Made by a program: the position numbers and the translations under genes. A stretch of 64,000 nt of DNA from Watersipora subatra (lineage: Eukaryota > Bryozoa > Gymnolaemata > Cheilostomatida > Watersiporidae): positions 54,470,526-54,534,525 of the forward strand of contig NC_088717.1 in the NCBI RefSeq assembly GCF_963576615.1, written 5' to 3'. The notes beneath the pieces are model-generated. The model was not told the origin of the DNA. It made no database searches and saw only the letters and a list, made by a program, of their open reading frames with translations. Below, in pieces: positions 2,365 to 56,160 of the stretch (its first letter is position 1; every line of letters starts with the position of its first letter).

Positions 2365-2570
2365 TTGGATTTTTCTTTTGCAAACAGTTGTTATCATAAT
2401 TTTGTTTAAAAATCAAACTGTGTTGTAAAACTGAACCGCGATCGAGCCAATTTAGCCAGAGAGCTTTAGTGGTTTAAATAATTGTACTCATATTAAGGTT
2501 GTAGCAACAATAAGGGTAAAAAGGCCTAAACAAAATTAATAGCAATTATCAGTGATTTAAATTGGTCACC

Positions 2571-5587: not shown

Positions 5588-6170
5588 CCTGAATATGTTG
5601 AATTAATAATAACAATTGCTTAGTCGATTACTAAGGTTAAAAATGTTTACTGTTCCACCAGAAGCCTCCATCAAAACTTTGAATACGACGATACCGGTAC
5701 CTCTCGAACCTCGATACTGGCAAAACAGAGATATCATACTGTTTTTGTCTAACCAAATAGAAAGAGAATGTCGAGGCTTTTCTTACGGAGATAATATAAA
5801 TGTTCGCTTGAAAAGAGTTGGCCTTGACCGCGATATAGCAAGTGAACCTTACGAAAAACCAAAATTAGAAGTTCAAGAAAAAAACGAATTAGCATCGTGT
5901 TTCATAGAGTTATTAGAAATCATAGAGTTTAAAATAATACGTCATTTAGCGTGTGTATACGCTATACTGTAAATGATAACGTCTGTTATCAATACGTGTT
6001 GTATAGCTCAGTGGTAGAGTGAATGTAAAACTTGCGGATGCAACTGCCATGGGTTCCAATCCATCAGAATGCAAAATTTTAATTGTAGGATTTTAATAGT
6101 TATAGCTGGACAAACACACACAGGACAAACTTTGAGAAATATATATATAAATCGGCTGCTGTGCACCTGT
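5588..6170 (+). repeat. tRNA-related interspersed repeat R1 (3' part)
   Basis: This is homologous to 24855-25391 and 55523-56040. A Pol III A box (TAGCTCAGTGGTAGAGTG, 6004-6021) and B box (GGTTCCAATCC, 6052-6062) give it a tRNA-like core. The tail (TAGTTATAGCTGG followed by CA-rich DNA) is the same in all copies. Upstream of the tRNA part is about 400 bp of family-specific sequence in which this copy keeps an open frame (ATG 5643 to stop 5970-5972, 109 codons). The other copies carry stops there, so the frame is not supported as a host gene. It is probably a composite SINE or the 3' end of a longer retroelement. Confidence 0.75.
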
Positions 6171-20767: not shown

Positions 20768-21895
20768 GCAGACGACACAAAATCCCCGACAACGCAGATG
20801 ACACAGAATCACAGACGGCCCAGAATCACAGACGACACAGAATCAAAGACGACACAGACTCAAAGTTGACACAGAATCACAGACGACAAAGAATCACAGA
20901 TGACACAGAATCAGAGTTGGCACAGAATCACAGACGACACAAAATCACAGGCGACACAAAATCACAGACAACACAGAATCACAGACGACACAGAATCACA
21001 GACGACGCAGAATCAGAGATGACACAGAATCAGAGACGACACAGAATCACAGATGACACAGAATCCCAGATGACACAGAATCACAGACGACACAGAATCA
21101 AAGGCGACACAGAATCAAAGACGACACAGAATCGCAGACGACACAGAATCGCAGACGACACAGAATCGCAGACGACGCAGAATCAGAGATGACACAGAAT
21201 CAGAGACGACACAGAATCACAGATGACACAGAATCCCAGACGACACAGAATCACAGACGACACAGAATCAAAGGCGACACAGAATCAAAGACGACACAGA
21301 ATCGCAGACGACACAGAATCGCAGACGACACAGAATCGCAGACGACACAGAATCGCAGACAACACAGAATCGCAGACGACACAGAATCGCAGACGACACA
21401 GAATCACAGACGACACAGAATCACAGACGACGCAGAATCAGAGATGACACAGAATCAGAGACGACACAGAATCACAGATGACACAGAATCCCAGATGACA
21501 CAGAATCACAGACGACACAGAATCAAAGGCGACACAGAATCAAAGACGACACAGAATCGCAGACGACACAGAATCGCAGACGACACAGAATCGCAGACGA
21601 CGCAGAATCGCAGACGACACAGAATCGCAGACGACACAGAATCGCAGACGACGCAGAATCAGAGATGACACAGAATCACAGACGACACAGAATCACAGAT
21701 GACACAGAATCGCAGACGACACAGAATCACAGACGACACAGAATCAAAGGCGACACAGAATCAAAGGCGACACAGAATCGCAGACGACACAGAATCGCAG
21801 ACGACACAGAATCGCAGACGACACAGAATCGCAGACAACACAGAATCGCAGACGACACAGAATCGCAGACGACACAGAATCACAGACGACACAGA
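20768..21895. repeat. 17-bp satellite array, copy 1
   Basis: About 66 units of the consensus GACGACACAGAATCACA, with variants in the last positions (CGCA, CAGA, AAAG). Since 17 is not a multiple of three, all three plus frames read the same 17-residue cycle and stay open for up to 159 codons. These are artefacts of the array. Higher-order blocks of about 250 bp recur near 20990, 21180 and 21430. Copy 2 has about half as many units. Confidence 0.95.
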
Positions 21896-22788: not shown

Positions 22789-24461
22789 TTATCTGATTTA
22801 TCCTTATCATGACTGCAGGTTACAAGCTAAATATGTATTTTCATTATTTATTAATATTACTTCTTGCAATTTTTTTTTTCAAACTTTATAAAGAGCTATT
22901 TCAAAATCCATTATCTATTTTTTGTTAATTTGTAATTTTCAAATGAGCCGTTACGCAGCGCCTTCAACTTACAGTTCTTCCTAAACGCATATGCTAAAAA
23001 GCTGAAAACCTTTTATGCGACCTTTTAACCCTCTCTATGAAACTAGGCTATGTCAATATATATGTGACTATTATACCTGGCTCACCAAATATATAAGGTG
23101 GGCCCGTGAGCCTTCTAATAGATATTTAACTGTTTTTAAGAAACTAGTTCATGTCGGTGTAAAAGTTGTTTCATTCAATAAAGTACTTGGTATTCTAGTG
23201 AAAAACTATCTCATTTAAAGATATAAATATGATATATATGTCAAGGATAGACGACCATTAATAATTTGCCATAATGCAGATTCAGCATTTTATCATGAGA
23301 GGACAAACCCCCTTCTGTCAACTTCTGACACTTTGCCGTGTCAAGGGAACCCAACTACAAGCAACTGTTTTAAAGTAGTTACATACTTGTCATGTGATGA
23401 AAACTCTTACTTGGTGACTGTTTATGACTGAAAACTAATGAAGACAGTATAGGTTTAGTGAAACAGTGTAATTATATATATACCTATATATGTAAAATTA
23501 AGTGTTTGTTTTTTGTTGTGTGTATGCTTGTTCAGTTAATAGCGACTAGTTAAAACACATCAACTGCGAAAACTATTGGTTGCTCGCATGCTGCAGTTCC
23601 GTGTGCCATGAGAGATTATGATGCATAATGATTATATATGAATTTATTACAAAATATGGCAAATTTGCTGCATGGTTTAATGAGAGTGTGTTTAGACTCA
23701 CATCTGTATATTCAACTGTACAGGTTTGAATCCTGTGAGGTGCAATATTTTTTCATAATGCTTTCATCTGGCTCCAGAAAGACTGAAGGACGGACACAAC
23801 TTTTATTATAGTAAAGATTAAAATATTAACTCAAGTTACTAGCTAAAGTTACTCAAAATTATCAGTTAATGAAACTTTGCCATTGACAACTACATTATCT
23901 TCCACTTTCTACATACTGTTTTGAGTCTTCGGCGAATGTGTAGCTTAAGAAGTGAGAAATGTTTTTCAACCATTTTAAAAGTTCAAAATGGTTAAAAAAC
24001 CAAATAAACAAATTCCAATCTACGGCGGCTTTTCGTTTTTGAGCTTTTAAGAGTTTGTAATCACGTTTCTTGAAAGTTGAAAGCTTGAAAGTGTAAACAG
24101 AAACCATCTACCACAACTACGTCACATTTGAGTCGTTTTGGAAAGAGAATCCAAACTACGGCAGTCTCGTGTGGCTGCGATTAACTGTTCGTCTTTTAGC
24201 TTTTAAGAACTTGTAATAACATTTTCACATATTTTGCACCTACAACACAGCTGAGTAAAACATGGTGAATCTTTTCATATCAAATAACTGTAATGTGAAT
24301 TTTGTTGCAAGTCAACCTTTAACCAAAATAACGACTTATATCGCTCAATGAATCTATTGCCTCTGCGATACAGATTTTTCATTGCTAGATTATAATCGCT
24401 ATTGCTGGACAAACATCAAATGGCGACGACGAACTTTGAGATACATATATACAAACTAGCT
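22789..24461. other. Intergenic DNA containing a tRNA-like repeat (23667-23745)
   Basis: The tRNA-like part has a weak A box (TGGTTTAATGAG) and a good B box (GGTTTGAATCC, 23723-23733), so it is a decayed SINE; the twin is at 54335-54413. A 67-codon frame at 23015 has no further support. No gene was seen. Confidence 0.5.
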
Positions 24462-25391
24462 GTACTACCCGGTGTTGATCGGGTAATAAAAAAGTCGTTG
24501 GACAGAAAATTGATTCGTATTTAACATATAACAACATTTGCCATTCTAACTTTCAAACTACATATCATGAGAGAAGTGTTTTGTGCAGTTGAAATAAATT
24601 AAGAGAGAAAATAACAACAACTGTAAAGGTTTTCAGACTTTGTAAAATGACTGTAACTTTCAAACTTTGTATCATGAGAAAAATGCTGGTCAAATAAATC
24701 AAAAATAAAACAAAACAACTATAAAAGGGTTTAAATGTAAATGTGGAATAATTAGCAAGCAATAGCTAAAGTAAGCCTGTTTTGCTACAATTACAATAAA
24801 AGATAATTCAGTAATGATACAATTAATATCAACTGAGAAAACAAAATAAAAATCTTGAGTATGTTGAATTAATAATAGCAATTATTTAGTCAGTTACTAA
24901 GGTTAAAAAATGTTACTGTTCCACCAGAAGCTATCCATGAAAACTTTGAATACGACGATGCTGGTACGTCTCACTGCTGGTAAAAATGAGACATCGTACT
25001 GTCTTTGTCTGACCGAACGTAGAGAGAATTTTGAGGTTCTTCCTATAGAGATAACACGATTGTCCGCATGAGAAGAATTGACCTTGACCACGATATAGAA
25101 ATCGAACCTTACGAAAAACTTAAATTAGAAGTCCAAGAAAACACGAAAAAGCATTGTATTTCGTAGAGCTAATAGAATGCATAAAGTTTCAAATAATACG
25201 TCATTTAGTGTGTGCATACGGTATACGGTATGTGATGACATCTTTGACCAATTTGCCTTGTACAGCTCAGTGGTAGAGTGGATAAAAAACTTATGGTTGC
25301 ATTCACCGTGAGTTCAAATCCATTGGAGCGGGGAAATTTAATTTCAAGATTTTAATAGTTATAGCTGGACACACACGCATACACACACAGT
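24462..25391. repeat. R1 repeat, nearly full length, ending in (CA)n
   Basis: It begins AGCTGTACTACCCGG and GATCGGGTAATAAAA, passes through the segment shared with 5588-6000, and contains a tRNA-like A box (near 25264) and B box (AGTTCAAATCC, 25311-25321). It ends TAGTTATAGCTGGACACAC with a CA tract. The 12.1-kb element is inserted in this CA tract. The twin is 55130-56040. Confidence 0.7.
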
Positions 25392-25416
25392 CTTGTAAAC
25401 GCATGCAATTGGGGAC
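25392..25416 (+). repeat. Left terminal inverted repeat
   Basis: CTTGTAAACGCATGCAATTG followed by GGGAC; 24 of 25 bases match the right end. Confidence 0.85.
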
Positions 25417-25779
25417 GCGATATTTTTACCATCACTTTGAGGACAATTTTCATCTATCATTGAGAGCTTTAAAAAACAACATATTAAAACATTTTTTGTT
25501 GGGTTTACAAATGCACTGATTTTTGGAGCTGTCATCTTTTCCGTTTTTCAGTTATAGCCCGTGAGAATTTAACACTAACTTTGGGGACTTCGCCTCACAC
25601 ACATGTATGAATTTTTTATCTAATAAACGGGGACTTTTGCATAGAGAAGATAACTCTGGCTTATTTTTGTTTTTTTCAACCATTTTGGAGTTGTCGGTAT
25701 GTGATATTCTTCCCACACTTTCGTAAATGTGCTTGTAAAAGTTATCCATCACTTAATTTTGTCCTCAAATATCAACTTA

Positions 25780-26480
25780 GAAGTTTAATAGTTCTTTATT
25801 AAACCTATTTAAAGTACTAATTCTACACATGTATGGTGCGCAAAGGTTGAATCGACCTGAGACTTTTATGTTTATTAATAAATTCAGTGTAATCAATTGC
25901 TTCACAGAATTTATGGTGATCCGTTCAAGTTAAGGTTTTGAATTGCAAACAGCCAGGCCAAGGTTGCAGGCTGATGTCTATCTAGATTTACGACTTTTCA
26001 ACATTTAACGGGAGTATGTTCAAGGTAAACATTTTAACATAGTTTTCATAGAACTCTTAAGCCCTGAGATCTGGGCAACAAATTTAATTACTATAATCGA
26101 TAAAGTATTTTGCTATATCTCATTTTTATCGCTACCAAGAGCAGCCATCAGAAAATTTACATTGCGCGATCATGAGTTAACTTTTTTAAACAAAAGTAAA
26201 AATAACCAGGCCAGCAAATGTGAGTAATTTTTTTAAAATCAGGAAGCCAAATAAATTTGGATATAGTTAATTTTAGTCGTACTTTTCTGTTTGGTTGCAC
26301 ATGATGATTATCACTTTTAATTTAAATTTTTGCGCAATTCCTTTGTTTGTAAGCCATGCATAAAAAGCCAAGCATAGACGGAGACATATTAGAATCAAGC
26401 TTTGGAAATGAAGCATTGGTATCTCCAATATGCCTAATGTAAGCTCAAAAACCTTTACCTTATAAAAATATCTTTATGTT
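25780..26480. repeat. Left arm, directly repeated at about 35890-36450
   Basis: Shared blocks in the same orientation and order include TTCTACACATGTATG, TTTACATTGCG...CATGAGTTAACT, AAACAAAAGTAAAAA and AAGCCA(T/A)(G/A)CATAAAAAGC. Identity by eye is moderate (about 70-80 percent). The remaining left arm to 26640 has no recognisable gene. Confidence 0.6.
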
Positions 26481-26639
26481 TAATAAATCGTGTTATCCGT
26501 ACCAAAAATTTGCCTTCTATTACATTTTCCTAAAAATATATTGAGCTGCCCATCTTTGCAAAAACCATACATTTAACTGTAATCTATTCAAATGTTTAAT
26601 AACAAGATTGACTCAATTTTTAGTGCAGATATGATCAAA

Positions 26640-29600
26640 AGTTTGCAAAATATTTTAACCATTAGCTTGGGAGTGTTAAATAAATACTATCACTGCACAC
26701 ATTGATTTGAGCTATCTCGGTACTATTGAAATAAACTTTGTTCAATTTGAAGGCGTGTACGTCATCCACATTACGTATGATACTACAGTCAATGTTTTTT
26801 GAAGTAATTGGCCAGTTATTGGAACTGCAAACCATCAAAAATAGTCTCAAATATGTTGTCATACAATTTTTCTGATGTATGATGTAAACATAAAACAAAA
26901 GTGTCTTTGTATTAGTATACAAGTATATTCATTATTTAGGTACAATTGACCAACTATTATAAGTGCACACGATATCATAAATTCTCTCAATGCTAGTCTA
27001 ATAGGGAATCTGTACTTTTCACCCTCAACTATTTAGAGGGCAATTTGAGCACAAGGGAATGTTTGGTACTTTAATCAGCAAGTTTGTAACCATTAGTTTA
27101 ACAAATTAGTAGAAATATTATTGAGAAAAGATATCCCTATATTGGTTGTAGAAAAATTATCGCAGGTGTGTATGATATTTTTACCATTGATTTGGGGACA
27201 TTGACTGATTATTTTATTTGAAATCACAGTCATCATCATTCATAATACCATTGCTGCAAGATGTTCCAATTTTAATGCCAAAATATCAACCCCAGTAAAT
27301 ATGCTTCTAAAGCAGTTTCCCGAGTACATTGACCAATTATAATAAAACAACACAGTCAGTCATAGAATATGTCAACACCATTGCAACGAAATGTCCCCAA
27401 TTTGATGGTAAAATTATTCTCACACGTGTGTATGATATTTTAACCATTGATTTGGGGACATTGACTGATTATTTTATTTGAAATCACAGTCATCATCATT
27501 CATAATACCATTGCTGCAAGATGTTCCAATTTTAATGCCAAAATATCAACCCCAATAAATATGCTTTTTAAACAGTTTTCTGAGCACATGGACCAATTAT
27601 AACAAAACAACACAGTCAGTCATAGAATATGTCAACACCATTGCAACGGAATGTCCCCAATTTGATGGTAAAATTATTCTCACACGTGTGCATGATATTT
27701 TAACCATTGATTTGGGGACATTGACTGATTATTTTATTTGAAATCACAGTCATCATCATTCATAATACCATTGCTGCAAGATGTTCCAGTTTTAATGCCA
27801 AAATATCAACCCCAATAAATATGCTTTTTAAACAGTTTTCTGAGCACATGGACCAATTATAACAAAACAACACAGTCAGTCATAGAATATGTCAACACCA
27901 TTGCAACGATATGTCCCCAATTTGATGGTAAAATTATTCTCACACGTGTGTATGATATTTTAACCATTGAATTGGGGACATTGACTGGTTATCTTATTTG
28001 ATATCACAGTCATGAATATTCCTAATACCAAAATGCTGCTAGATGTTCCAAATCTAATGCCAAAATACCAACCCCAAAAATATGCTTCTTAAGCAGTTTC
28101 CCGAGCACATTGACCAATTATAACAAAACAACACAGTCAGTCATAGAATATGTCAACACCATTGCAATGATATGTCCCCAATTTGATGGTAAAATTATTC
28201 TCACATGTGTGTATGATATTTTAACCATTGATTTGGGGACATTGACTGATTATTTTATTTGAAATCACAGTCATCATCATTATTAATACCATTGCTGCTA
28301 GATGTTCCAATTTTAATGCCAAAATATCAACCCCAATAAATATGCTTTTTAAACAGTTTTCTGAGCACATTGACCAATCATAACAAAACAACACAGTCAG
28401 TCATAGAATATGTCAACACCATTGCAACGATATTTCCCAAATTCTATGGTAAAATTATTCTCACACGTGTGTATGATATTTTAACCATTGATTTGGGGAC
28501 ATTGACTGGTTATCTTATTTGATATCACAGTCATGAATATTCCTAATACCATAATGCTGCTAGATGTTCCAAATCTAATGCCAAAATACTAACCCCAAAA
28601 GTATGCTTCTTAAGCAGTTTCCCGAGCACATTGACCAATTATAACAAAACAACACAGTCAGTCATAGAATATGTCAACACCCTTGCAACGATATGTCCCC
28701 AATTTGATGGTAAAATTATTCTCACATGTGCGTATGATATTTTAACCATTGATTTGGGGACGTTGACTGATTATTTTATTTGAAATCACAGTCATCATCA
28801 TTATTAATACCATTGCTGCTAGATGTTCCAATTTTAATGCCAAAATATCAACCCCAATAAATATGCTTTTTTAAACAGTTTTCTGAGCACATTGACCAAT
28901 TAGAACAAAAGAACACAGTCAGTCATAGACAATGTCAACACCATTGCAACAATACGTCCCCAATTTGATGGTAAAATTATTCTCACAGGTGTGTATGATA
29001 TTTTAACCATTGATTTGGGGACATAGAACAATTATTATGTGTGAACTCACAGTCATGAACAATCTAAAAACCATTGCTGTAAGATGGCCGTTATTTGACA
29101 GCCAAATATCTCAGACATGTTTACGCTATTTTAAACATTTGTATAGTCGCATTAACCAATTCTGATAAAAGAATGTAAGTTTTAAGCCATGTAAATTCAT
29201 CATACCAAGATGTCTCAATTTGATGACAGAACTATTATCACATGTGCATATGACTTTACAATTTTTTGTAAGTTCACTTACAGTCACTAATCATTTCAAA
29301 GCATTTGGGCTGTGGTAAAATCTCTCTAATTTAATGGCACAAATATCACAGCAAGTTTTTGTTATATTTGAAACATTAGCTTGAAAAAATTGATCTATAA
29401 TGGTAAGTGCACACTTATTCGTTAACCATCTTAAAGCGAATGTGTGAGAAGATTTCACCAATTTTGTGGCAAAACTATTATTGCAACTGTGAATGATATT
29501 GCTTCCATTAGTTTGAAACATTGACCAATTATTACCAATCTACACGCAGTGATCAAGCATCTCATAGCTATTGTGACAAGATGTCCTTAAATAGATGCTA

Positions 29601-30480
29601 AGATACCATCACCAGTGTTTATAATTATGTAACTATTCTGGGAAGTTGGCCAATTGATGCAACTCCGATCACAGTCATACAAATATGTATAAACAAATAT
29701 GTAGAAGTCATATGTAATAAAATGTCCCTAATGCCTGCTCCATTATCTCCACAAAGCGTGTATGATTTTTTAACCATTTGCTCGGGGATATTGAGCAATT
29801 ATTACAAAAGCAGTTTGAGTGATATAGTATATCAACGCCATTGTGATATGTTGTTGCTAATTTGAGGGTTCCAATATAACCACGAGTTTGCATAACCTTT
29901 TAACCATTGGTTTGAAATAATTGTCAAAATTTACTGGTGCATGCATAGTATTAATTCATATCAAGGATGTTATAAAAAGTTTCCTTCAGTTTGTTGTTAC
30001 ATTTGATGACAAAGAATAAAATATTTCTAATTTGGAAAGACGAATACCCCAACAAATACTTATTATATTACAACCATTAGTTTCGAACATTACACAATGA
30101 TTATAAGAGCAGAATTAGTCGCCACCAATCTCAAAACATTTGTAATAAGATTTTCCCAAATCGATGGTAAAAATATCAGTGCATGAACATTTGCTTGTAT
30201 GGCCATTGGTTTGAAAACATAAAGCAAATATTATAACTGTACATACAGTCATAAAATTTCTCAATGCTATTTCAATAACTACGAATATTATCAAAACCAT
30301 TCATTAAAATACAACCATTACTTTTAGAATATTGATGAATTAATTAATTATACTTTCATCCGTAAAAAATTCATTGAACACATATCCTCATTTCGGTTTC
30401 GGAATTATTATCATGGGTGTGTATGCCATATAACCTATTAGTTTGGGATTTTTACTAAATCTTGTACGAAAATTATTGGG
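26640..30480. repeat. Satellite with 120-130-bp monomers and a 260-bp dimeric higher-order repeat
   Basis: The word TGTCCCCAATTTGATGG or a close variant recurs at 27392, 27652, 27912, 28173, 28433, 28694 and 28955 (steps of 260-261 bp). Each unit is two related halves, one starting TGTCCCCAATTTGATGG and one starting TGTTCCAATTTTAATGCC. Flanking units on both sides are diverged single monomers (near 29211, 29453, 29582, 29722 and 29848). The core is homogenised and the edges are decayed, the usual satellite pattern. Each dimer contains ATTTGGGGACATTGAC facing GTCCCCAATT, sharing ATTGGGGAC-type sequence with the element ends. Confidence 0.9.
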
Positions 30481-30799
30481 TGTAATAAAATATATTTATT
30501 TGTTTCAAATATTAGCATGATAGAAACTATTGAGCCTATAATTGGCACACGTAAACAAGACAACAACACTAATGCAATACAAATATAATATAATTTGTGT
30601 ACAGCTAAAAGACAATATTGCAACTAAAGGTGAATTGCTGTCTACTAAGTAGATATTTGCCAGATTATTTTCAGAACCTGTGAAACAGAATACAACCTTT
30701 CAAACACATTTCACTTGCTATGCCTGTTTGGCTTTTAATTCATATTGAAGTTTTTAAAAATAAAAATAGACAGTAACTATCCAATTCTTTAAGTATTTA

Positions 30800-32215
30800 A
30801 TAAAATTTTAAGTATAACATTTCAGTGTGAAACCTTCGGCCATGTTTTACTAAGTCAGTATTGTTTATGATGATAATCATTTATGTGAGCAACAACTAAT
30901 AATATGAAATATTTTGAAAAGGTGATTCGTCGTTACCGTTAACTGTTGTTCACTTTATTTTGTCGATTCAAGACGCGTGGCATAACTCTTTGGCAATTGT
31001 GCAGTAAGTTGATGGATCGTGAAAGCTGTTTAGATTGGCAAATATGTATGCATGTCTTTAAAAAATGGGCATAGTGGAAACCATGTGATATAAATTAGAA
31101 GTGAGCAAGACTATCTGATGTTGCAAATAAAGTTTAAAATCTTGCGCCTAGGTAGAATCTTGACAAATTATTTGCAGTGTACGCGAGATTTACAAGCAAC
31201 CATTTCATTAACAACATGTCTTACTCACTGAATCTGCTTTGTTTCTAGCTAACCATAAATCCTTGCACAGAATAGGATATTATAGAATGGAATAGACAGA
31301 AAATATTAAATTCATTGAATATTTGAAAAGTGTATACGCTATTGAGCACAAACTTTATGAGAGTTTAGGATCTTATTTGTCTTTGATGTAGTGTACAAGC
31401 ATAAAATGTTATAATCTTGTTATTGTGCATGAGCAGTACTGAATTTTACTGATTGCAGTATTGAATAAGTTTCTTTGTTCTCTAAGTTTAATTGGTGCTA
31501 CTTCAATATTACATAATCATAAGCAGAACACGACATGTTCAATGTATGACAGGCAAAGTTTCAACAGTGATAAACATGTTGGCTCAGAAAAATCTCAAAC
31601 AGCGCAGAAAGTTTATCAATGCTGCGAGACTTTTTCAAAGCAATTATTAATAAAAAGGGGTGGCTATATACATGTATGAGCTACGCAAAGTAAAGTGAGA
31701 TGAGTTTTCCAATCTTTAAAACTATATGTAAGCTTTCCAACAAAAGTAGTCAACGGCCAGCTATAGAATATTTCTAAAAAAAAAGGTTAGTTCAAATTAG
31801 CGATCCCAATAGAACAATAAGTAGGTTATTGCACTATTGCTATTGCTATCTAAAATTATTTTGTTACAATGCAATTTCTAAAAAGACTTGTGTAGTTTTT
31901 TAAACAAAATTACAAATTGACAAAACAGGAATTTTGGCTCGTGAGCTTCCTTGAGTAAAAGACCAAAAGTAATAACTTTGTCAGCAGTAATAAAAACAGT
32001 TGACAAGGATCTTCAGGCAATTTTGCAAGTGTGATTTTGCGAATTTTCAACAAGGGATCTACCAGTTGGTAATTATTGGTGCTCAACACAAGTTTTTGTT
32101 TAATTTTGTATCTAAATTTTCAGAAATATTTTTGCATATTGGTATCATTCCTGCAGACCTTTTATTATTGTGAATTTTATAAGCAATTATCAGCCTCTCT
32201 TGCTTCATATAAAAT
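30800..32215. repeat. Long internal repeat, unit 1
   Basis: It is homologous to units at about 33000-34125 and 34130-35440. Markers in order are TTCACTTTATTTT, AAAGCTGTTTAGATTGGCAA, ACCATGTGAT, AAATAAAGTTTAAAA, TAATCATAAGC and TTGTTACAATGCAAT. Units 1 and 3 also share a 3' extension ending CAGCCTCTCTT. No coding frame was seen. Bases 32216-32999 are unmatched AT-rich DNA. Confidence 0.75.
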
Positions 32216-32999
32216 TAGCATTGTAATTAAAACTGTTAAATATTTTTCAGTGTAGTATGTTATGGAGAGCATATCTTAAGAGAACAAATTTCTTCTCTGG
32301 ATGAGAGACTGTGTAAAAGTCGCAAACCATATAATCTTATTATTGCCTGCGAGTAACCGTATTGCATAACTTGCTTTGTTCTCTTAATAGATCTTGTTGC
32401 TGTTTGATGTTGCATCATGATTACCTGGACCCTTGCTGCTTAATGTTTAGCAGAAAATAAGTGGAAAGTAATAATATTTACTTGGTTCAGGAGATTCTCT
32501 AACAACACTGAAAGTATACCAAAACGACGGATATTAAACAAAAATTATTAGAAAAACAACGGCACTAGAAAACAACTTAGCAATAATCGCTCACTATTAG
32601 AGTTCTTGCTGTGCAAGCCGTTACATCAACCGAACTATCTAATGTGATGCAAAAGAAAAAAACTTTGTGAGTGTGATATTCCAACAATCAACCTTGAGAA
32701 TCATGCATTTTGAGTTTAAAAGATTTTTCCAATTGCGATTTAAATTAAAAACTAAAGCAAATCAGTAAATACATGACTTCAAGCCTTCCATAGTTGGGGG
32801 TGATATAATTCTATTGTCTATCATAATTTTCTTCTGGTATGAGTTGCTCATGGTTAAATTGCATATAAATTGTCAAAATAATAAACTTCTCTTGAGAAAT
32901 TGAAAAAGGTTTCATAAGAAAGATCCTTCATATTTGTTTTAAAATATAACTGTTCAACTCTTTTTAAATTCGATAGTCTGATTAAAGAATTAATTTGTG

Positions 33000-34125
33000 T
33001 TCCATATTACAGGTTGTTTTTCATAATGTTATCAAATAAATCATTTGACAATATTGCCCTATGTCAGTATAGCGTATGATAATAGTAGTCTATGGGAACA
33101 ACATCAATTTAGATGAAACATTTTAAAAATATGATTTGTGTTGATTGTTAGCTTTTGTTCATTTTATTTTTTCTATTTAAGACGCATGTGATAACTCTTT
33201 GGAAACTATGCAGTGATTTGATGCACTGCGAAAGCTGTTTAGATAGGCAAATATGTACGCATTTCCTTTAAAAATGGGCTTAGTGAAAATCATGTGATCT
33301 GAAATGAACGTGAGCATGACTATCATTAATCCAAAACAAATGTAATATTTCCTGTTTGAGGCTAGCTAGGTGATGTTGCAAATAAAGTTTAAAACCTGGC
33401 ACCTGGGTAGATTCTTAAAAACTATTTGCAGTGTCTGGAGATTTTGAAGCCACCATAGCATTTACAACATGTCTCACTTGCTGAGTCTGCTTGCATTTTA
33501 GCTAACCATAAAGCTTTGCGCAGAATAAAATACTGTAGAGCAAAGTAGACAGAAAATACTAAATTCATCGAATATTTGTAAATTGTATATGCTAGCAAGA
33601 GCAAACTTTATGAGAGTAAACATTTGATTTGTCTTTGATTTGGTGTATAAAGCATCGAATGTTATAATCTTGTTATTGTATATGACCAGCAGTACTGAAT
33701 AAGTTTCTTTGTTCTCCAGATTTAACTCCTGCGTCTTTGATATTACATAATCATAAGCAAGACACTACAGGCTCAAGGTATGACAGGCAAAGATTGAGAA
33801 GCGATAACATGTTGGGTCAGACAAATCGCAAACAGCATCAAAATTTCACTAATGCCGTGAGACATTTTCAGAGTAATTATGGAAAAAAGAGCAACTATCA
33901 GTAACACAAAGTACAATTAGATGGGTTTTCCAAACATTGAAACTGTAGATAAAATTTACAACCCAAGTTGTCAATGACCAGTTATAAAATAATTCTCATA
34001 AAACTGATTAGTTCAAATTAGCAATCACAATAACAATAGAACAATAAGTAAATTATTGCACTATTGATATCTAAAATTAGTTTGCTACACTGCAATCTAT
34101 AAAAAATTCTTGCGAATGTCAAATA
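33000..34125. repeat. Long internal repeat, unit 2
   Basis: Same markers as unit 1 (AAAGCTGTTTAGATAGGCAA near 33230, TAATCATAAGCAAGACAC near 33750). It lacks the 3' extension of units 1 and 3. Confidence 0.75.
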
Positions 34126-34129
34126 GGAT

Positions 34130-35445
34130 GTTTCCATGTGAAATATTTGACAACATTGATCTATGTCTGTATAGTTTATGATAACAGTGATCTTTGTGTG
34201 CAACATCAATTCAGATGTAATATTTTGCAAATATGATCCGGCTTGATTATTACAGGTGGTTCACTTTATTTTCTCTATTTAAAACATATAACATTACTCT
34301 TTGGCGCCTGAGCAGTAATTTGATGCATTTTGAAAGCTATTTATATTGGCAAATAAGTACGCATTTTCTTAAAAAGATTGGCATAGTAAAAACCATGTGA
34401 TTTAAAGTGAACGTGAACATGAGTACCAATAATACAAAACAAATACAATTTGTTCTGTTTGAGGCTAACTGGGTGATATTGCAAAGGAAGTTCAAAATCC
34501 CGCGCCTAGGTAAATTATTGACAAATTATTTGCAGTGTCTGTGAAATTTACAAGCTACTATTTTATTAAAAACATGTCTCACTCACTGCATCTGCTTGGT
34601 TTTTAATTAACAATAAAGCCTTGTGCCAATAGAATATTATAAAATGGAGTAAATGGAAAATAATAAACTCATTGAATATTTGTAAATTGTATATGCTATT
34701 GAGCACAAATTTTATGGAAGTAAACATCTTATTTGTCTTTGATTTGGTGTGTAAAGCATCCAATGTTATAATCTTGTTATTACAGATGACCAGCAGTACT
34801 GAATAAGTTTCTTTGTTCTCTATATTTAACTTGTGGTTCTGCGATGTTACATAATCATAAGCGAGACACTACAGGGTAAATGTATGACAGGCAAAGGTTG
34901 AGAAGCGATAACACGTTGGCTCAAATAAATCTCAAATAGCACGAAAATTTTACCAATGCTGTGAGAGTTTTTTAAAGTAACTATTAAAAAAACAATCAAC
35001 TATGACCAACAAAAAGTTAAAAAGTCGGTTTTTCAAACATTAAAATGTAGGTAAGCTTTCTAACAGAAGTAGTCAATGGCCAGCTATAGATTAATTCTCA
35101 TAATACTGTTTACTTCAAATTAGGAATCACAATAACAATAGCACCATAATTAAATTATTGCCCTATCGCTATTGATATTTAAAATTAGTTTGTTACAATG
35201 CAATCTATAAAAAATAATTGCAAAGTTTTAGGAACAAAATTAAAAATAGCATCTACTATAGATTTACAAATACTACAAATAGATCTACTATTTGGTATTT
35301 TCTGGTGATCAACAGAATTTTTGGTTTCATTTTGTGTTTTAATTATAAAAAATGTTTTTCTTTATATTGGTCTAACTTCTTTAGATTTTTTATTGTTGTG
35401 AATTTTTACAAATAGGTAGCAGCCTCTCTTATATTTATATATAGA
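34130..35445. repeat. Long internal repeat, unit 3
   Basis: It starts about 1.1 kb after unit 2 and carries the full series of markers and the 3' extension (GGTGATCAACAGAATTTTTG, CAGCCTCTCTTATA). Confidence 0.75.
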
Positions 35446-37307
35446 TTTTCAGTATGCATTGCTTATTTGCTGAGACGTTAGCTAAGCGCATTTGGCTTTG
35501 TATCGAATAACAAACAAAGTTTCATGCATTCACTGAACCGTATTAGGCTCTTACATATATACATTACTGAAATCCAGCTAAAATTATATATGATGAATAC
35601 TACAATAAAATTAAAAAATTTTTTATCTTTTGCATTCCCATAAACGAAGTAGTAATAAACATTAAAAAAATCATTCATGTCGACGATTATTTGCGTTCAG
35701 TATTTCATACCCATTTAACATCCCAAAAAATCTTTTTATTGTTTGCGAGTATACAAAAAAACTTTGTATACTTAACTTTTTGCCAATTTCATGTGCTCGG
35801 TGGACAATTTCATGTGCAATCTCATGTGCACACTTTCATAATTATGCTATTAAAAGTTATGCATGACTTCATTTCTACTTCAAACTCAGTTCAAAAGTTC
35901 TATAGTTGTCTATGAAATCTTTGTTGAGTAATAAATATACATATTATGACACTTTTTTAATTTACTTTTAGGAACTATTAATTCTACACATGTATGATGT
36001 ACAAAGGATAACTCAGCATTAGGCCATTAGCGATTGGCATAAACAGACAACAAATTTAATTACGTTACTGAATTAATTTTGTTGCCGTATCTCGTTTTAT
36101 ACTGCTAGCAATGCCAGTCATCAACATATTTACATTGCGTCAGCATGAGTTAACTATTATAAACAAAAGTAAAAAGAACAAGTGAGGTGATGACAAGCAC
36201 TTTTTCAAAAATCCAAAAGCCAAAAATAATTAAATATATTCATTAAATGTTGACACTGCTGCTTAGTTTTACACATTGATAACCGCAATTGATTAAACTT
36301 GAAACTTGTATAATTCCATTGTTTTCAAGCCATACATAAAAAGCAAGCATAGGGACATAGGAGTTAAATTACAATCAAGCTTTAGATAAAAAGATTGGTA
36401 TTGTCAACATACTCAATATAAACTTGATGAAATATATATATTTTCTAAAACAACTATAAGTATTTTCAATGAGGAGCGATAAATGTATGGCAGAATTTTC
36501 CATCTAGCTATTTCATTCTCAAAAGATATACTACCTTGTCAATCTTTGTAATTGACTCTGATCTTTTAGTAGCAACGAAAGTTTTTTAAGACTATGTGAA
36601 ATTAACCTGAGATTTTATGCAGCTATAACTTATGTAAAAAATGTACGTAATGAATTCAAACAAATCTTTTGAATAATAAAGCGCAATTTTTTGTAATTGC
36701 GTATAAACTACAACCATACTAAAATGAAAGCTAATAAGTGAAGAAGGATGCATATGTGAGAATATTTGAAAAAGTACAAGAGCTCTCAAGGATTATTAAA
36801 GGCCTGAACTATTGAAGGAAGCAAACGAGACACACTTTCAAATGTCTGCTGAGCGTGTATAACTGCTGACCAAATACATTATAATGTAAAAAAAACTTTG
36901 CAAATGCTAAACTACAAAATACATTTGTAATGCAGAAGAGCAAATATAGCCTTTAACTAAACATAAGTTCAAAAATAATGTAAACGCTCAATTTGCTTCC
37001 GAAGCTACATTAAAAAAAACTCACAAATATTGTGACTTTTCACTCACAAATATTGTGAGTTTTCATCTCTTGTAATTTCATTCTTATAGAAACTCGCAAA
37101 TATTGTGAGTTTTTACAAGGTAGAAATTAGCTCCCCAATAAGATATAATGTCCCCAATTGTTAGGTAAAAAGTTTCTATGAGAAGAAAACTCCGAAAATA
37201 TTTGCCTATTAACAAATGGAAACAGGTCAAATGTGTGTGAGAATTTAACAAACTTTATGGGGACTTACATATTTTTTCACACACCCACACTCACAGATGT
37301 TCTCGTA
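35446..37307. other. Right arm of the element
   Basis: Bases 35890-36450 repeat the left arm in direct orientation. Bases 37020-37125 hold three copies of a near-palindrome, CTCACAAATATTGTGAG and variants. No supported gene. Confidence 0.55.
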
Positions 37308-37486
37308 CAAATGCAGGCAATTGGGGACAGTGCTCAGATTTTGTCGGGAGTTGGATTAAACTATATATTTTTTAGTTTTTTATAAGAAAAAAGGGTTTAA
37401 AAGATTGGGGACGTCCCCAATTTCTGAACGTCCCCAATTTGTCTGTTAAATTCTGGTGTGAGTCCCCAATTGCATGCATTTACAAG
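37308..37486. repeat. 179-bp inverted-repeat unit forming the right end, including the right TIR
   Basis: ACAAATGCAGGCAATTGGGG followed by AC (37308-37328) is a near copy of the left TIR in the left orientation. With the right TIR (37462-37486) it brackets 179 bp. Between them are further GGGGAC/GTCCCC words (ATTGGGGACGTCCCCAATT near 37404 and CGTCCCCAATTTG near 37428). The end therefore looks like a small inverted-repeat element in its own right, or an array of enzyme-binding sites. Confidence 0.7.
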
Positions 37487-37625
37487 TTCACACACACACA
37501 CGACCAATAGTTATAGCTGGACACACACGCATACACACACACACGACCAATAGTTATAGCTGGACACACACGCATACACACATACACACACGACCAACTT
37601 TGAGATATATATATATATATATATA
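37487..37625. repeat. (CA)n and repeated TAGTTATAGCTGG tails
   Basis: The R1 tail module (ACGACCAATAGTTATAGCTG, then CA repeats) occurs three times. It is the right side of the insertion target and is also present at 56020-56160. It ends in (TA)n. Confidence 0.85.
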
Positions 37626-37891
37626 TGTATCACTTGTATCACTTGTCATTAAATGAAGAGTTCACAGAAAATCATATAAATGGCCTATAATTTTGCTATT
37701 TACATTGTTTGTTAACCTCGCAACATACTATCAGAATAAAATTAGTGATTTGTGTAAATTTACAATGCTAGTATGTTGCACTCTGTTGAATAATCTGAAT
37801 CACAGGTCCTTCTGCTTCCTACTTTTCCAATATACATGTACATTCTACTGCAAAGGGTGTAACAGCACTTTTGAGCTTGTCTTTTATGGCT

Positions 37892-37942
37892 ATAGACCTA
37901 TTAACTATACTATAGTCAATGGGTCTGTGTTAATAGGTCTAT
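37892..37942. repeat. Foldback: 14-bp perfect inverted repeat
   Basis: ATAGACCTATTAAC (37892-37905) and GTTAATAGGTCTAT (37929-37942) enclose 23 bp. It is present in copy 3 (56455-56505) and not seen beside X in copy 1. It could be a tiny foldback element or a regulatory hairpin in the X upstream region. Confidence 0.8.
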
Positions 37943-38111
37943 GATCATGACTAGTGACCACAGCCTCGCGCTGCGTTGGGTTATACAGTGTAATGGATAT
38001 TGCATAATTTACACTGAACTAATAGCATCTACTAACGGAAGAATCAACACATGCTAATGGAAATCAAATCTTTTAACCAACCATTTTCCTTTAGTAAGGC
38101 TCGCTTGCTGC

Positions 38112-38119
38112 TATAAAAG
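38112..38119 (+). promoter_or_regulatory. TATA box of X, copy 2
   Basis: TATAAAAG, followed by G, 86 bp before the ATG. It is a better match to consensus than that of copy 1. Confidence 0.65.
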
Positions 38120-38204
38120 GATTCGCGTTTACAGTCAATGCACATTTTCTTAACAGAGTTGAGAGACGATTCCACGCAAAAATCAACCCTGGTATTTAGA
38201 AGAC

Positions 38205-39712
38205 ATGACGATGTTTGATTATCGGACAACTGAAATAAACAAGGGAGGACAATTAACACCAGCTATGCATGCCTATGGAGCAGTGGGTACAAGGAGACCT
38301 ATAATCAAAAGGGCTGCCTCTTCGACGGACCGACACAACAGCAATTCCTCTGGTATATCTCACGCACCATATTCGACCAACCTTCCTCAGTACAGACTGT
38401 TTGAGAACACTCAACACCTTCTACCTTTCAGTCAATATCAACAGCCCTTCTACAACGACTACCTACAACAGTTGCCTGTGTACCTACCTGCTCCTCCAGA
38501 GCAGAACACACCCTTTAGTCACAATAACTGGCCAGTTCTCCAGCAACACAACCATGCTGATTGGACTGTCAGCGCACCGACAACAAGACAGACAACTTCT
38601 CCAAAGATGCTGTCTTCAACCTCAAGAGACTCAGACACAATGAGTATACAGTAATCATTGTTGCACGGTTTGTTTACAAAGTTGCGCCAAGTAGTCATAG
38701 ATATATGCAGCCAAAACTGACCAAAACTAACAGAATACAACACTCTACTTCGATAAAAAAGACTTTGGATATAAGGCTCATTAAGGTAATATTATATTTT
38801 AGTATTCTCCCAACTCAGTCAACACTCTGGCCTCAGCCGTCCAAGATGTGCAAGTGTCTCCACTGGAAGATCTATCGGCAGAGACAGCAAGAGTTGAGAC
38901 CAACAGCAGTGACAGCGATGATGATGAAACAGAACACACAGAAACTCATCCCAACAAGTATCCAGTAGAAATAGAATATCATGAAAATCAGCAATGCGGT
39001 TTTAGACGTCAGTCCACGAGGTTAGTAGAATACTTAACTAGTTGTCTATGGTATGTTGAAGTTAGTAGAGCCATGTAATACTGGAGATATGAGAATGTAC
39101 AGACTATTTTTTACACCACTCAAACAGATGTCTATGTTTACAGGTCTGAGCCAAAAATGAAACAGCAACAAAGTACCGTATATGACCCTCTCACAGGACA
39201 GAATGTTCCACAAGTTCACCACACAAAATATTACCAAAAACATCTAGTTAGGCAGGGGACTAACATACGCTTGAAGGTACATGCACCTGGTACAGGCAGT
39301 ACTCTCATTATTCGCTTTTGGTATGCTGAGAGAAAGGAAGATGAAGAAGCACACTCTAACATTAAGTTTCCAATTGGAATAGAAAATCAGGAGTTATATC
39401 ATCCTTTCTGCGGCAGTCACCTAAGGGATGTACAAATGAGCTCTCAACAGAACAGCCATAATGCCTCGGTAAGTAAACAACAAACACAAAACAGTTCATT
39501 TACCAAACAAAATAAAATATAAATCCAATTTTAAGCCATAGCTGTTTATACAACAATGTACCCTTGATGTGTTTCAGCATGAGGCTATTTCCTTCAACCC
39601 GGTGGTACCTGATGAGGATTCTAAGAATGACAATTTTACTATAGCTCACATGGTATCTGATGCCCCTGATGCAGATGAGCCTTGGTTCATAGAACAAGTG
39701 AAGCTACTGTAG
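38205..39712 (+). pseudogene. X, copy 2: all four exons present, first splice donor GT changed to AT
   Basis: The exon equivalents are 38205-38639, 38803-39020, 39144-39468 and 39578-39712. The last three keep frame and splice sites, and the joined frame would encode 370 residues. The donor of intron 1 reads ACA/ATGAGT instead of ACA/GTGAGT. Unless an AT-AG intron is used, reading continues to TAA at 38652-38654 and gives a 149-residue N-terminal fragment. The nearest GT (38651) would shift the frame. There are many amino-acid differences from copy 1 (for example RF/PL, E/G, T/P in exon 3). It is called a pseudogene for the full product; the short product may still be made. Confidence 0.65.
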
Positions 39713-40030
39713 TGATGCCCGATCAGTAGGTTTATAGTTTAAGCACATGTGTGATTATCTCCCTTGCTTTAGGTGAAAGAATTTGATATTTCTCTTTGGA
39801 CAATTGCTGACATCGCTCTGAATTATGGGAAATAAGTTGTGAATTGAATCAAAGGGCTCAACATGAACCAGCATCTCTATACGTCAATCTATTGTGCACA
39901 TAGAGCCCTCATCAGTGATTTTTATGGTGTATATTTTTGCAAGTGTCTTACTTGATACAAAAATAACATTATTCAATTAAAAAAAAGGTATGATACTTTA
40001 TATGAGATATGTGAAACAAAATTTGGAAGT

Positions 40031-40073
40031 TTGCTATTGCAACACTATTGCAAGAGCAGTGTTGCAATAGCAA
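40031..40073. repeat. Hairpin with 15-bp stem, copy 2
   Basis: Identical stem and loop to copy 1. Confidence 0.8.
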
Positions 40074-40660
40074 TAATGTTGCAATGATAGTGTTGCAACA
40101 CTTATAATGTTGCAATATGGGTGTGAGAGTGGAAAGGAAATTTGTAAATTTTTCCAAAGTTTAATCACAATTAAATCATGGTGAAGAATAATCTCTGTTA
40201 GCCTCCAATTTGAGTTCTTACAACTCCCTTTAGTTAACAAAGTTGAATCACAGAATTTGTTATTTATAGCATTTTAATTGGTTTTTAATTATCGTTAAAT
40301 ACTTGTAAAGTTTGGTTACGAATTGTATAAAATAAATTGTTTGTATTATGTTGCTGTAGTCATCATTTTTGTGGCTGTTAGCGTAAAGTGTTCATGCCAT
40401 TGGTAGCTAGTGTCTGACACATCAGTGCTAAACATTGAGAGGGCATCAGACATGTCTTTATCCTGATGTCATACTTCTTATAACACTTCTAATAGCTTTG
40501 ATGTCGCAATCAAAGCTAGGTAAAAATGCATTATTATAGAGCCGTGTATTATTAAGTAGATTATTACTATTAATTTATGCTGCGCAACAAAGATTTTGGC
40601 GAAATTGAAAAGAGAAGAAAAGTGACCAAAGCGCCAGCCTCATCAGTCTAGCTAAAGTTA

Positions 40661-40706
40661 TACCATTATATCATTAAGTATTTAAATACTTAATGATATA
40701 ATGGTA
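40661..40706. repeat. 46-bp perfect palindrome, copy 2
   Basis: Same sequence as 7355-7400; it borders the 3' end of the Y array. Confidence 0.9.
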
Positions 40707-40961
40707 CATCTGTCTGTAAATGTGACACCTTGTAAAAGGGTACCTGCAAAACTTTTCAACTCTAGTGATAAACACAACTTAAATTTGAATGGCTTGTAGC
40801 ACTTGCAGAGTCTGATGAGTACCCTCTTTCCAGTCTTATAGTCATCATACGCTTTCCATTTACACTTCTGACTGTAGTGTATCTCGTATCCATCACAATC
40901 ATTAGCTCTACCTTGTATCAGAACTCCATCCATCTGACTGTATTTACCACACCGACAGATT
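40682..40961 (-). CDS. Y array (-), copy 2, third unit with extended tail
   Basis: The acceptor is TTGTTTACAG at the high end; the frame is ICRCGKYSQMDGVLIQG...CYKPFKFK with a 37-residue tail running into the palindrome. All six cysteines are kept. The tail is shared with copy 1, so it is old, but it has no clear constraint. Confidence 0.5.
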
Positions 40962-41097
40962 CTGTAAACAACATGAAGAGAAGATAAAAACATGGCTCAT
41001 CATCAATATTGATTTGCTTTGCGAAAAAATAGGATGCCTTGTTTCCGTTTTAGAAGTCCATTTGGTGAGCCTATAAATGAATAACAGAATAGAGTTT

Positions 41098-41278
41098 TCA
41101 GAGCATGGGCTTGTAGCACTTGCAGAGTCTGATGAGAACTCTCTTTCCTGTCTTATAGTCATCATACGCTTTCCATTTACACTTCTGACTGTAGTGTATC
41201 TCGTATCCATCACAATCATTAGCTCTACCTTGTACCAGAGCTCCATCCATCTGACTGTATTTACCACACCGACAGATT
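41098..41278 (-). CDS. Y array (-), copy 2, second unit
   Basis: It is exactly 181 bp, with acceptor TTGTTTCCAG, six cysteines and the ending KPML-TGA (41098-41100). It is the same length and phase as units 2 and 3 of the plus-strand array at 6603 and 6834. Units here are separated by about 135 bp of longer spacer that includes GCTCACCAAATGGACTTC. Confidence 0.6.
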
Positions 41279-41414
41279 CTGGAAACAACATGAAGAGAAG
41301 ATAAAAACATGACTCATCATCAATATTGATTTGCTTTGCGAAAAAATAGGATGCCTTGTTTCCGTTTTAGAAGTCCATTTGGTGAGCCTATAAATGAATA
41401 ACAGAATAGAGTTT

Positions 41415-41585
41415 TCAGAGCATGGGCTTGTAGCACTTGCAGAGTCTGATGAGAACTCTCTTTCCTGTCTTATAGTCATCATACGCTTTCCATTTACACT
41501 TCTGACTGTAGTGTATCTCGTATCCATCACAATCATTAGCTCTACCTTGTACCAGAGCTCCATCCATTTGACTGTATTTACAACA
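41415..41585 (-). CDS. Y array (-), copy 2, first unit with atypical 5' edge
   Basis: It ends KPML-TGA (41415-41417). The 5' edge is the CAAGGCTGAGAAG type described for 6387, with no phase-compatible acceptor. It may be a remnant or a differently spliced exon. Confidence 0.4.
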   Translation of the reverse strand, partial: CCKYSQMDGALVQGRANDCDGYEIHYSQKCKWKAYDDYKTGKRVLIRLCKCYKPML

Positions 41586-41669
41586 CGGAGAAACTTCTCA
41601 GCCTTGCTGTTAATTGGAGGGAGGGGCACAATTACTGAATATTGTACATGCAACAAATGAGACAACTAA

Positions 41670-42723
41670 AATGTTAGCCAACATGAGACTCAAACATGAC
41701 ATTCAGGCTAATAGACTGATGCTCTCATTACTTTCTAAATCCTTAGATTCGTTGTATCAATGAGGGAATGAAGATTACATTTTACAGAGAAAGTTACAGA
41801 AAAAGTGTTTGACCTTAAATTGCTGCATGACAAAAAAATGTGTCTGTAAATACTTGTCAAAAAATCGCACAGGCAAATGAATCTACTATGGCTGTACGAT
41901 GTTTGTACAATGCCACTGGGTTTAGGACTGTATAGGGATAATTAGCGAGCAATGAGTCTCTTATCCACATGTAGTTCCTGCTCACTGCGACAAGCGAAGA
42001 ATGTGTCATACTTCATTTCAGAGGGATTTGCAGGAACACAACAATAACAACTGATGACAAGGATGTCTGTCAAACCAGACTGACCTTCTAATCATGAAAG
42101 TCTGTTGTATGGAGATTGTTGATACTAATGGGATATATCAGGTTTCTACACTGTATATCGCCATGTTTATATCACTAAGTTTGAGCCAATCCGCAAGTTA
42201 TCCTCATCATAGAAACGGCATAAATCTACAGGCTAAGTGAGTTTTGCTACTCACAAACCTTTATCGAATTCATCATGCACGTGAATGATAGAAACGGCAC
42301 GTGCGAATGATGAGTATTAAAATATCATTAAAATATCGCGCAAGCTACTCCATTGTAAACATTTTCACACTTCGGAAGTTTTTTTCTATTTGAGCAGTTC
42401 AAATGCGCTAATGTTCCAAATGAATGCTGCTAAGCCAAGCGCGACAAGACTGTTTCGCTTCTTATGGGGTCATTAATTAGCTTAATGATGTAATTGTGTC
42501 AAAAGAATCGATCAAATGAAAATAAAACCCAATAAAAGGCTAAAACATCAGCTACAAGTTTATGTCATTTTTGTCTTTGTAAACTAACCCTGTCCAGAGA
42601 TATAATCGATTGAATGAGATCATTTTTAAGACGCTCAGATTCGAGCGATGCTTTATTCGTGATGTGTATAGTAATACATATGAAACGAGTCTACGAGCGA
42701 TAAACATATGACTTTTTCTTTAG
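41670..42723. other. Spacer between Y and W in copy 2
   Basis: Counterpart of 11830-12888. The short frame seen in copies 1 and 3 is cut by TGA near 42238. No gene was seen. Confidence 0.5.
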
Positions 42724-55129: not shown

Positions 55130-56160
55130 GTACTACCCGGTGTTGATCGGGTAATAAAAAAGTCGTTGGACAGAAAATTGATTCGTATTTAACATATAAC
55201 AACATTTGCCATTCTAACTTTCAAACTACATATCATGAGAGAAGTGTTTTGTGCAGTTGAAATAAATTAAGAGAGAAAATAACAACAACTGTAAAGGTTT
55301 TCAGACTTTGTAAAATGACTGTAACTTTCAAACTTTGTATCATGAGAAAAATGCTGGTCAAATAAATCAAAAATAAAACAAAACAACTATAAAAGGGTTT
55401 AAATGTAAATGTGGAATAATTAGCAAGCAATAGCTAAAGTAAGCCTGTTTTGCTACAATTACAATAAAAGATAATTCAGTAATGATACAATTAATATCAA
55501 CTGAGAAAACAAAATAAAAATCTTGAGTATGTTGAATTAATAATAGCAATTATTTAGTCAGTTACTAAGGTTAAAAAATGTTACTGTTCCACCAGAAGCT
55601 ATCCATGAAAACTTTGAATACGACGATGCTGGTACGTCTCACTGCTGGTAAAAATGAGACATCGTACTGTCTTTGTCTGACCGAACGTAGAGAGAATTTT
55701 GAGGTTCTTCCTATAGAGATAACACGATTGTCCGCATGAGAAGAATTGACCTTGACCACGATATAGAAATCGAACCTTACGAAAAACTTAAATTAGAAGT
55801 CCAAGAAAACACGAAAAAGCATTGTATTTCGTAGAGCTAATAGAATGCATAAAGTTTCAAATAATACGTCATTTAGTGTGTGCATACGGTATACGGTATG
55901 TGATGACATCTTTGACCAATTTGCCTTGTACAGCTCAGTGGTAGAGTGGATAAAAAACTTATGGTTGCATTCACCGTGAGTTCAAATCCATTGGAGCGGG
56001 GAAATTTAATTTCAAGATTTTAATAGTTATAGCTGGACACACACGCATACACACACACACACACGACCAATAGTTATAGCTGGACACACACGCATACACA
56101 CACACACGACCAATAGTTATAGCTGGACACACACGCATACACACATACACACACGACCAA
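55130..56160. repeat. R1 repeat, copy 2, carrying the empty target site
   Basis: tRNA-like A box near 55932 and B box AGTTCAAATCC at 55979-55989. The CA tract and three TAGTTATAGCTGG tails are continuous here (56020-56160), where copy 1 is split by 12.1 kb. Confidence 0.8.

Follow-up and report, generated by a model that had tools for sequence, protein, structure and literature searches.

Can a DNA segment of 12 kb that has no recognisable gene be a mobile element, and how might it move? This question is raised by a segment within a 64,000-nucleotide stretch of the genome of the bryozoan Watersipora subatra (contig NC_088717.1, positions 54,470,526 to 54,534,525 of the forward strand; the whole stretch is called the window here). 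The segment, referred to below as the element, is 12,099 bp long when a GT at its left terminus and a TT at its right terminus are included. An initial annotation of the window proposed that it is a giant non-autonomous transposon or a mobile satellite carrier. The analysis described here supports this proposal, and the host genome contains a whole family of such giant, noncoding elements, which have inverted ends and are mobile but non-autonomous.

A genome-wide family with conserved ends

The ends of the element carry a 25-bp inverted repeat of the form CTTGTAAA(C/T)GCATGCAATTGGGGAC, whose two copies agree at 24 of 25 positions, exactly as the initial annotation reported. If up to three mismatches are permitted, this pattern has two matches in the window, both of them element ends, and none in any of 100 shuffled versions of the window. 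Thus, a chance inverted repeat can be rejected. The inverted match between the two ends of the element is at most these 25 bp long, and the tandem array of the element is internal. The span proposed at first, 25392..37486, holds for the inverted repeats, and the element itself reaches two bases further on either side (Table 1).

There are 437 ends with no more than three mismatches in the host genome (783.7 Mb, 239 contigs), and there are none for a reversed-pattern control. Narrower patterns count left-type ends, right-type ends and internal right-end motifs separately (218, 212 and 205, respectively). Judged from these end counts, the family comprises roughly 210 copies. Pairing was carried out among the first 100 places listed for each end, with 85 of the 100 listed left ends entered. 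For 55 of the 100 right ends listed, a correctly oriented exact left end lies no more than 30 kb away. The spacing between the ends of the listed pairs has a median of about 13.6 kb, with the middle half falling between 13.3 and 14.3 kb and the extremes at 2.9 and 26.1 kb. The initial annotation had recommended a genome search with the end pair, both for other insertions and for an autonomous relative, and had allowed that the two ends might not co-occur elsewhere. They do co-occur, and other insertions are plentiful. No autonomous partner with the same ends was found among the 12 large copies that were read of roughly 210. The exact end patterns also have no match in viral and prokaryote contigs.

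Nine full copies were read (the window copy, C2:60483068, C2:24514668, C2:31139762, C1:18808753, C2:44465711, C3:22680805, C3:68965701 and C2:67831185), together with parts of three large copies (C2:61633438, C2:46737334 and C7:9311230) and two deleted copies of about 3 kb. Sampled copies are collinear with the window copy and about 91-99% identical, and their right 2-kb ends are 95.7-99.7% identical between copies. Conservation is much higher at the ends than in the body. Based on 15 sequences per end, in which one locus is counted twice and the first 25 bases served as the selection criterion, the left end is 99.9% conserved in its outermost 50 bp and about 92-93% further in, and the outermost 200 bp of the right end are 99.1-99.7% conserved.

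Two further loci, C3:26357480 and C3:26767819, each have another left end about 12.2 kb beyond the copy, an arrangement that suggests a segmental duplication that includes the element.

Empty junctions at the window locus

The element fills one of three paralogous junctions, located between units A and B of a tandemly repeated locus, whereas the junction between units B and C at 56.05 kb is empty. When the flanks of 25390-37488 are joined, the product is the same as the 56.05-kb junction except for six additional bases in the CA tract, which comprises 16 bases at the empty site and 9 + 13 = 22 at the filled site. Filled and empty flanks agree without a mismatch over 2,390 bp to the left (23000-25389) and 4,511 bp to the right (37489-41999), and the window contains no N. 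These comparisons bear out two earlier observations, namely that both ends lie within one CA tract and that the duplicated locus at about 56.05 kb lacks the whole segment. Because the 56.05-kb junction with its perfectly matching 6.9 kb of flank and the older junction at 6.1 kb are both empty, the window copy is best read as a recent insertion.

The initial annotation also considered that the 56-kb copy might have lost the segment by recombination within the CA tract, in which case the segment could be immobile. Both ends do lie in a CA tract, and so a clean removal is conceivable. However, the older 6.1-kb junction is empty as well, which makes insertion likelier than loss, and tract recombination would not halt precisely at inverted repeats. 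Given also that the ends recur throughout the genome, an immobile segment is refuted by the family as a whole, and we regard this explanation as so improbable that it can be set aside. Another possibility is that the assembler has placed two haplotypes of one site in tandem, with the 56-kb copy as the empty one, such that the difference is an insertion polymorphism and not one between paralogues. The flawless flanks would fit this scenario, as would the turn of copy C from B-like to A-like sequence at about 59.5-60 kb, for which either gene conversion or a misplaced haplotype is a possible explanation. We consider this arrangement rather unlikely, and the conclusion that an empty site exists is the same either way. 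An assembly error at the window locus is conceivable, but it could not create a genome-wide family.

Target, orientation and register

Insertions of the family are located in CA-rich tracts and nearly always point the same way; their ends are exact (GT...TT), and they keep a register of 6 bp (CACRCA). The expected strand is CA-rich on 92 of the 104 distinct flank sides. Five of the remaining 12 adjoin another family end and one adjoins an inverted family piece, while L096 looks like a true reversal of orientation. The terminal dinucleotide is GT in 53 and TT in all 54 of the complete pairs. The hexamer next to either end reads C-A-C-R-C-A, and the register is the same on both sides, which supports a stagger of 6 bp. 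Some copies are head-to-tail neighbours, with exactly one hexamer between ends at L024 and at L013 (a truncated one), a spacing of 14 bp at L105 and a longer CA tract elsewhere (e.g. L028 and L135). Inverted arms around a short overlap, in fixed orientation, are a feature of the family; inverted arms around a short spacer form the usual site of a tyrosine recombinase according to PMC3212892.

Flanking hexamers and a possible mechanism

The hexamers on the two sides were compared in 54 pairs, defined as exact 25-bp cores with a partner among the listed ends. They are equal in 18 pairs (12 CACACA, five CACGCA and one CACAAC) and differ by 1 to 4 bases in the other 36. With the 12 CACACA/CACACA pairs set aside, six of the other 42 are equal. 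A plain 6-bp target duplication is doubtful because the hexamers are equal in so few pairs. Age is not the reason for the inequality, since the copies differ by a few percent only. Two observations speak for a foreign hexamer. At two loci, C2:27208503 in a (CACG)n tract and C5:47000595 in a tract with an 8-base period, only one of the two hexamers is, by eye, in keeping with the tract. In addition, the likeness of hexamers 1-2 (r 0.20) is below that of 2-3, 3-4 and 4-5 (0.47, 0.33 and 0.52, respectively; bootstrap 0.015).

Our best explanation, to which we would give an even chance, is that a noncoding family is moved in trans with a 6-bp stagger, through a circle that carries over a donor hexamer as in Tn916. 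An enzyme encoded elsewhere in the genome, which may be a helper tyrosine recombinase, would recognise two stretches rich in TTGGGGAC sites, namely the outermost 50 bp on the left and roughly 200 bp on the right. After cutting with a 6-bp stagger, the enzyme would join the ends as a circle in which one hexamer of the donor is retained (right end-TT-N6-GT-left end). Recombination of this circle with a CA hexamer at the target would then place a donor hexamer on one side of the new insertion and a target hexamer on the opposite side. Perhaps the body satellite, which would have been built from sequence akin to the left-end arm, is an array of extra binding sites, and its expansion and contraction may account for much of the size variation. 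A more specific version, which we put forward tentatively and think doubtful as a whole, is a Tn916-like eukaryotic element that has a circle with a 6-bp coupling sequence, depends on a helper recombinase, enters CA microsatellites in one orientation, and has a body made only of repeats, partly from its own recognition sites, which would leave its size nearly unconstrained (3 to 26 kb between ends).

Several results weigh against the carried-over hexamer. The 18 equal pairs exceed the permuted mean of 12.3 (P 0.022), an excess that target duplications eroded in part would likewise produce. The test of tract purity did not reach significance (7 of 12 versus 5 of 17 non-pure, P 0.15). The fit of hexamers to their local sequence was 0.658 for the better one versus 0.647 at random and 0.282 for the worse one versus 0.250, in a test whose positive control reached only 0.570. 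The window copy is uninformative here, with CACACA on either side. No enzyme linked to the ends was found in a genome search that covered the profiles PF00589 and PF03175, but not those of Dada, IS3EU or other transposase groups. The search with PF00589 yielded five weak matches in the genome, four of which have internal stops and none of which is located at family ends, and the four PF00589 loci that were fetched contain no GGGGAC. The window copy likewise has no Pfam match to a tyrosine recombinase.

The main rival to a carried-over hexamer is a DDE transposase acting in trans, most obviously one resembling Dada, or else one of the IS3EU/GingerRoot or hAT6 type or a Polinton integrase. In this scenario, a 6-bp duplication would be made with a strong preference for CA tracts, and many duplications would later be altered by microsatellite mutation or conversion. 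The window site did gain exactly 6 bp, the equal pairs are slightly more numerous than after permutation, and CACAAC flanks the 22-kb copy on both sides. According to PMC3706591, Dada elements are target-specific, keep a fixed register at multicopy targets with duplications of 6-7 bp, occur as tandem copies one hexamer apart and have internally deleted derivatives; Dada-tA even has non-matching hexamers, the cause of which is not known. In the same text, however, Dada elements encode a DDE transposase, insert into snRNA and tRNA genes and are reported without terminal inverted repeats, whereas the present family is noncoding, inserts into CA microsatellites and has 25-bp inverted ends. It also counts against a duplication that the hexamers of 36 pairs differ although right 2-kb ends diverge by only 0.3-4.3%. 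Polintons are present in the genome, as indicated by 35 matches to PolB (PF03175), many of them in frames of about 1000-1300 amino acids that apparently belong to Polinton-like elements in good condition. However, no PolB match falls between the listed end pairs on C1-C8, the nearest being 3.7 kb outside. Taken together, a DDE transposase is a credible contender with somewhat less than an even chance, and we place the carried-over hexamer first, near even with it. It is also conceivable that the elements are not parasitic and are excised in development by programmed DNA elimination, which would suit bodies that are large, noncoding and rich in satellite and whose ends are exact and conserved. 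We judge this very improbable, and the nested retroelement and P-like insertions described below show only that the body tolerates insertions.

Composition of the element

The element lies below its surroundings in G+C and CpG content, with a CpG observed/expected ratio of 0.52 versus 0.67-0.70. As the initial annotation stated, the body is filled with satellite and long repeats, which is confirmed by a satellite profile and by repeat comparisons. The satellite has a 260-bp dimeric repeat composed of 130-bp units, and all of its 24 profile matches are within the element, with none in the flanks or in 20 shuffles at E<=0.01. The arm adjoining the left end aligns to the satellite with a score above that of all 2000 shuffles. 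Moreover, TTGGGGAC occurs 22 times in the window, and all 22 occurrences are within the element, at both ends, beside the ends and in the satellite. Old direct repeat copies sit near either end of the element. The right end carries a motif resembling the left end in opposite orientation, and its single-strand fold is strong (z -4.8, reached by 0 of 200 shuffles), compared with z +1.2 for the left end. Neither the kinship of satellite and left arm nor the fixed orientation and mostly unequal hexamers could be seen in the initial annotation.

Table 1. Positions of the element and associated features in the window
Feature	Position	Strand	Basis
Whole element	25390..37488	+	End search, flank joining and flank comparison; GT/TT termini in paired copies
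Left terminal inverted repeat, C-type end	25392..25416	+	218 genome relatives, 36-base pattern, <=3 mismatches
Right terminal inverted repeat, T-type end	37462..37486	-	212 genome matches, 29-base pattern, <=3 mismatches
Left flanking hexamer CACACA	25384..25389	+	Filled/empty junction comparison; paired-copy termini
Right flanking hexamer CACACA	37489..37494	+	Filled/empty junction comparison; paired-copy termini
Left subterminal arm, akin to satellite monomer	25417..25460	+	Local alignment score 34; 0/2000 shuffles reach it
Old direct repeat, copy 1	25714..26561	+	Partner 35829-36551; blocks 63-73% identical
Old direct repeat, copy 2	35829..36551	+	Partner of 25714-26561
130/260-bp satellite	26651..30277	+	Homogeneous array 27166-29086, decayed copies on either side; 24 profile matches
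Repeats of about 1.1 kb	30850..35247	+	30850-31917, 33059-34116 and 34141-35247; 73-80% identical
Left-end-like motif within right end, preceded by CA-rich stretch	37302..37328	+	205 genome-wide
Right-end module with inverted motifs	37230..37488	-	Fold z -4.8; first 200 bp from end 99% conserved
Empty site, 16-base AC tract in paralogous junction	56049..56064	+	Flank joining
Older paralogous junction, also empty	6114..6122 (~6.10-6.13 kb)	+	Neighbouring sequence 79% identical

Coding capacity and length variation

When the window copy is translated in all six frames, with X in place of stops, no Pfam family matches at E<=1. The initial annotation saw no frame over about 90 codons. Strictly, two stop-to-stop frames exceed this length (114 amino acids at 35571-35915 and 100 amino acids at 34566-34868), but both are degraded in most other copies, being broken, gapped or shortened in six of eight and eight of 11 half-copies, respectively, where they were located. 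None of the 13 window frames of at least 70 amino acids is intact across all half-copies where it was located. The nine full and three large partial copies have no recognisable protein of their own, and the longest own frame in them, outside nested elements and flanks, has 132 amino acids. Frames of this length occur in L020, L114, L115 and L138, and the one that was scanned, in L020, has no Pfam match. The possibility of a Polinton remnant was rejected, given that the window copy has no Pfam match to PolB or integrase and that no PolB match falls between the end pairs listed on C1-C8.

Hidden genes in the long copies were also considered and rejected, because the added length consists of nested elements in the 22-kb copy and, as far as the others were read, of family sequence. 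In long copies without nested elements, the 260-bp satellite arrays are the most variable part. Of the 26-kb copy, 24 kb were read and nearly all of this is family sequence. The same holds for what was read of the 17- and 19-kb copies, except for one stretch of 424 bp that these two have in common. This stretch (L114:286-709 and L115:4651-5073) does not occur in the reference copies used. The 22-kb copy C2:31139762 (L013-L015) owes its length to three nested elements, namely a Gypsy-type element with frames of 633 and 713 amino acids, a P-like element with an 8-bp duplication, and an element with other inverted ends.

Neighbouring features of the window

Positions 8814-64000 of the window consist of a locus of about 18.5 kb in tandem repeats, whose unit identity is a mosaic (95% to 100%). 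The units have short uncharacterised frames in common, without Pfam match, and Pfam scans of the flank genes gave sub-threshold matches only. Just upstream of the insertion site is a tRNA-like sequence (approximately 25255-25340 and 55934-56000) with A-box- and B-box-like stretches discernible by eye, which is probably a short interspersed nuclear element. ARAGORN calls no tRNA there, and Rfam and tRNA scans gave no matches. A 17-bp minisatellite, CAGACGACACAGAATCA, is found at 20795-21895 (65 copies) and 51984-52540 (33 copies); its unit length is not divisible by 3, which leaves several frames open. Finally, an open frame of 603 amino acids at 2556-4367 has a 30-bp internal repeat and a cysteine/histidine-rich C-terminal stretch, and a protein search with it found no relative.

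Comparison with known systems

Tn916-type elements (PMC11838328) share with the present family inverted arms around a 6-bp overlap and unequal flanking hexamers, which in their case differ because one comes from the donor. These elements are bacterial, have their own integrase and enter AT-rich targets in both orientations, whereas the present family is eukaryotic, noncoding and fixed in orientation in CA tracts, and its circle is only proposed. Cryptons (PMC3212892) are eukaryotic, have direct repeats of 4-6 bp at their ends and are proposed to use a circular intermediate, but they encode a tyrosine recombinase and are reported to lack terminal inverted repeats.

The Tetris foldback elements of Drosophila virilis (PMC4079207) are likewise noncoding, a source of satellite and without a known autonomous partner, and have tandem repeats derived from their own ends. 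They differ in having long terminal inverted repeats that enclose the tandem array and duplications of 8-10 bp, compared with 25-bp ends, a single internal array and sizes of 12-26 kb in the present family. Helentrons of oyster (PMC7492417) are non-autonomous carriers of satellite-like arrays around the genome, but belong to the rolling-circle class, whereas the present family has inverted ends and a hexamer register. The termini of IS3EU/GingerRoot elements are TA..TA or TG..CA (PMC10045372), in contrast to GT...TT in 53 of 54 pairs here. Polintons/Mavericks make a 6-bp duplication (PMC10045372). They are of comparable length and encode polymerase and integrase, for which the window copy has no match.

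Biological implications

Non-autonomous DNA elements are usually short, and the body of the present family is much larger than that of the Helentron-borne satellite elements. It is odd that the copies examined lack an enzyme of their own and that their two end hexamers are usually unequal. Roughly 210 copies of about 13-14 kb, free of genes, appear to have been moved intact and in fixed orientation into CA microsatellites. This would show that very long DNA can be mobilised by a eukaryotic enzyme to a target that is both plentiful and harmless. Should the hexamers be carried over, the family would integrate site-specifically in a way known from bacterial elements. No description of an element of this type, or of such integration by a eukaryotic noncoding element, was found in the literature searched, with most subscription journals outside the search. 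The family also represents a concrete route by which satellite arrays can travel and expand.

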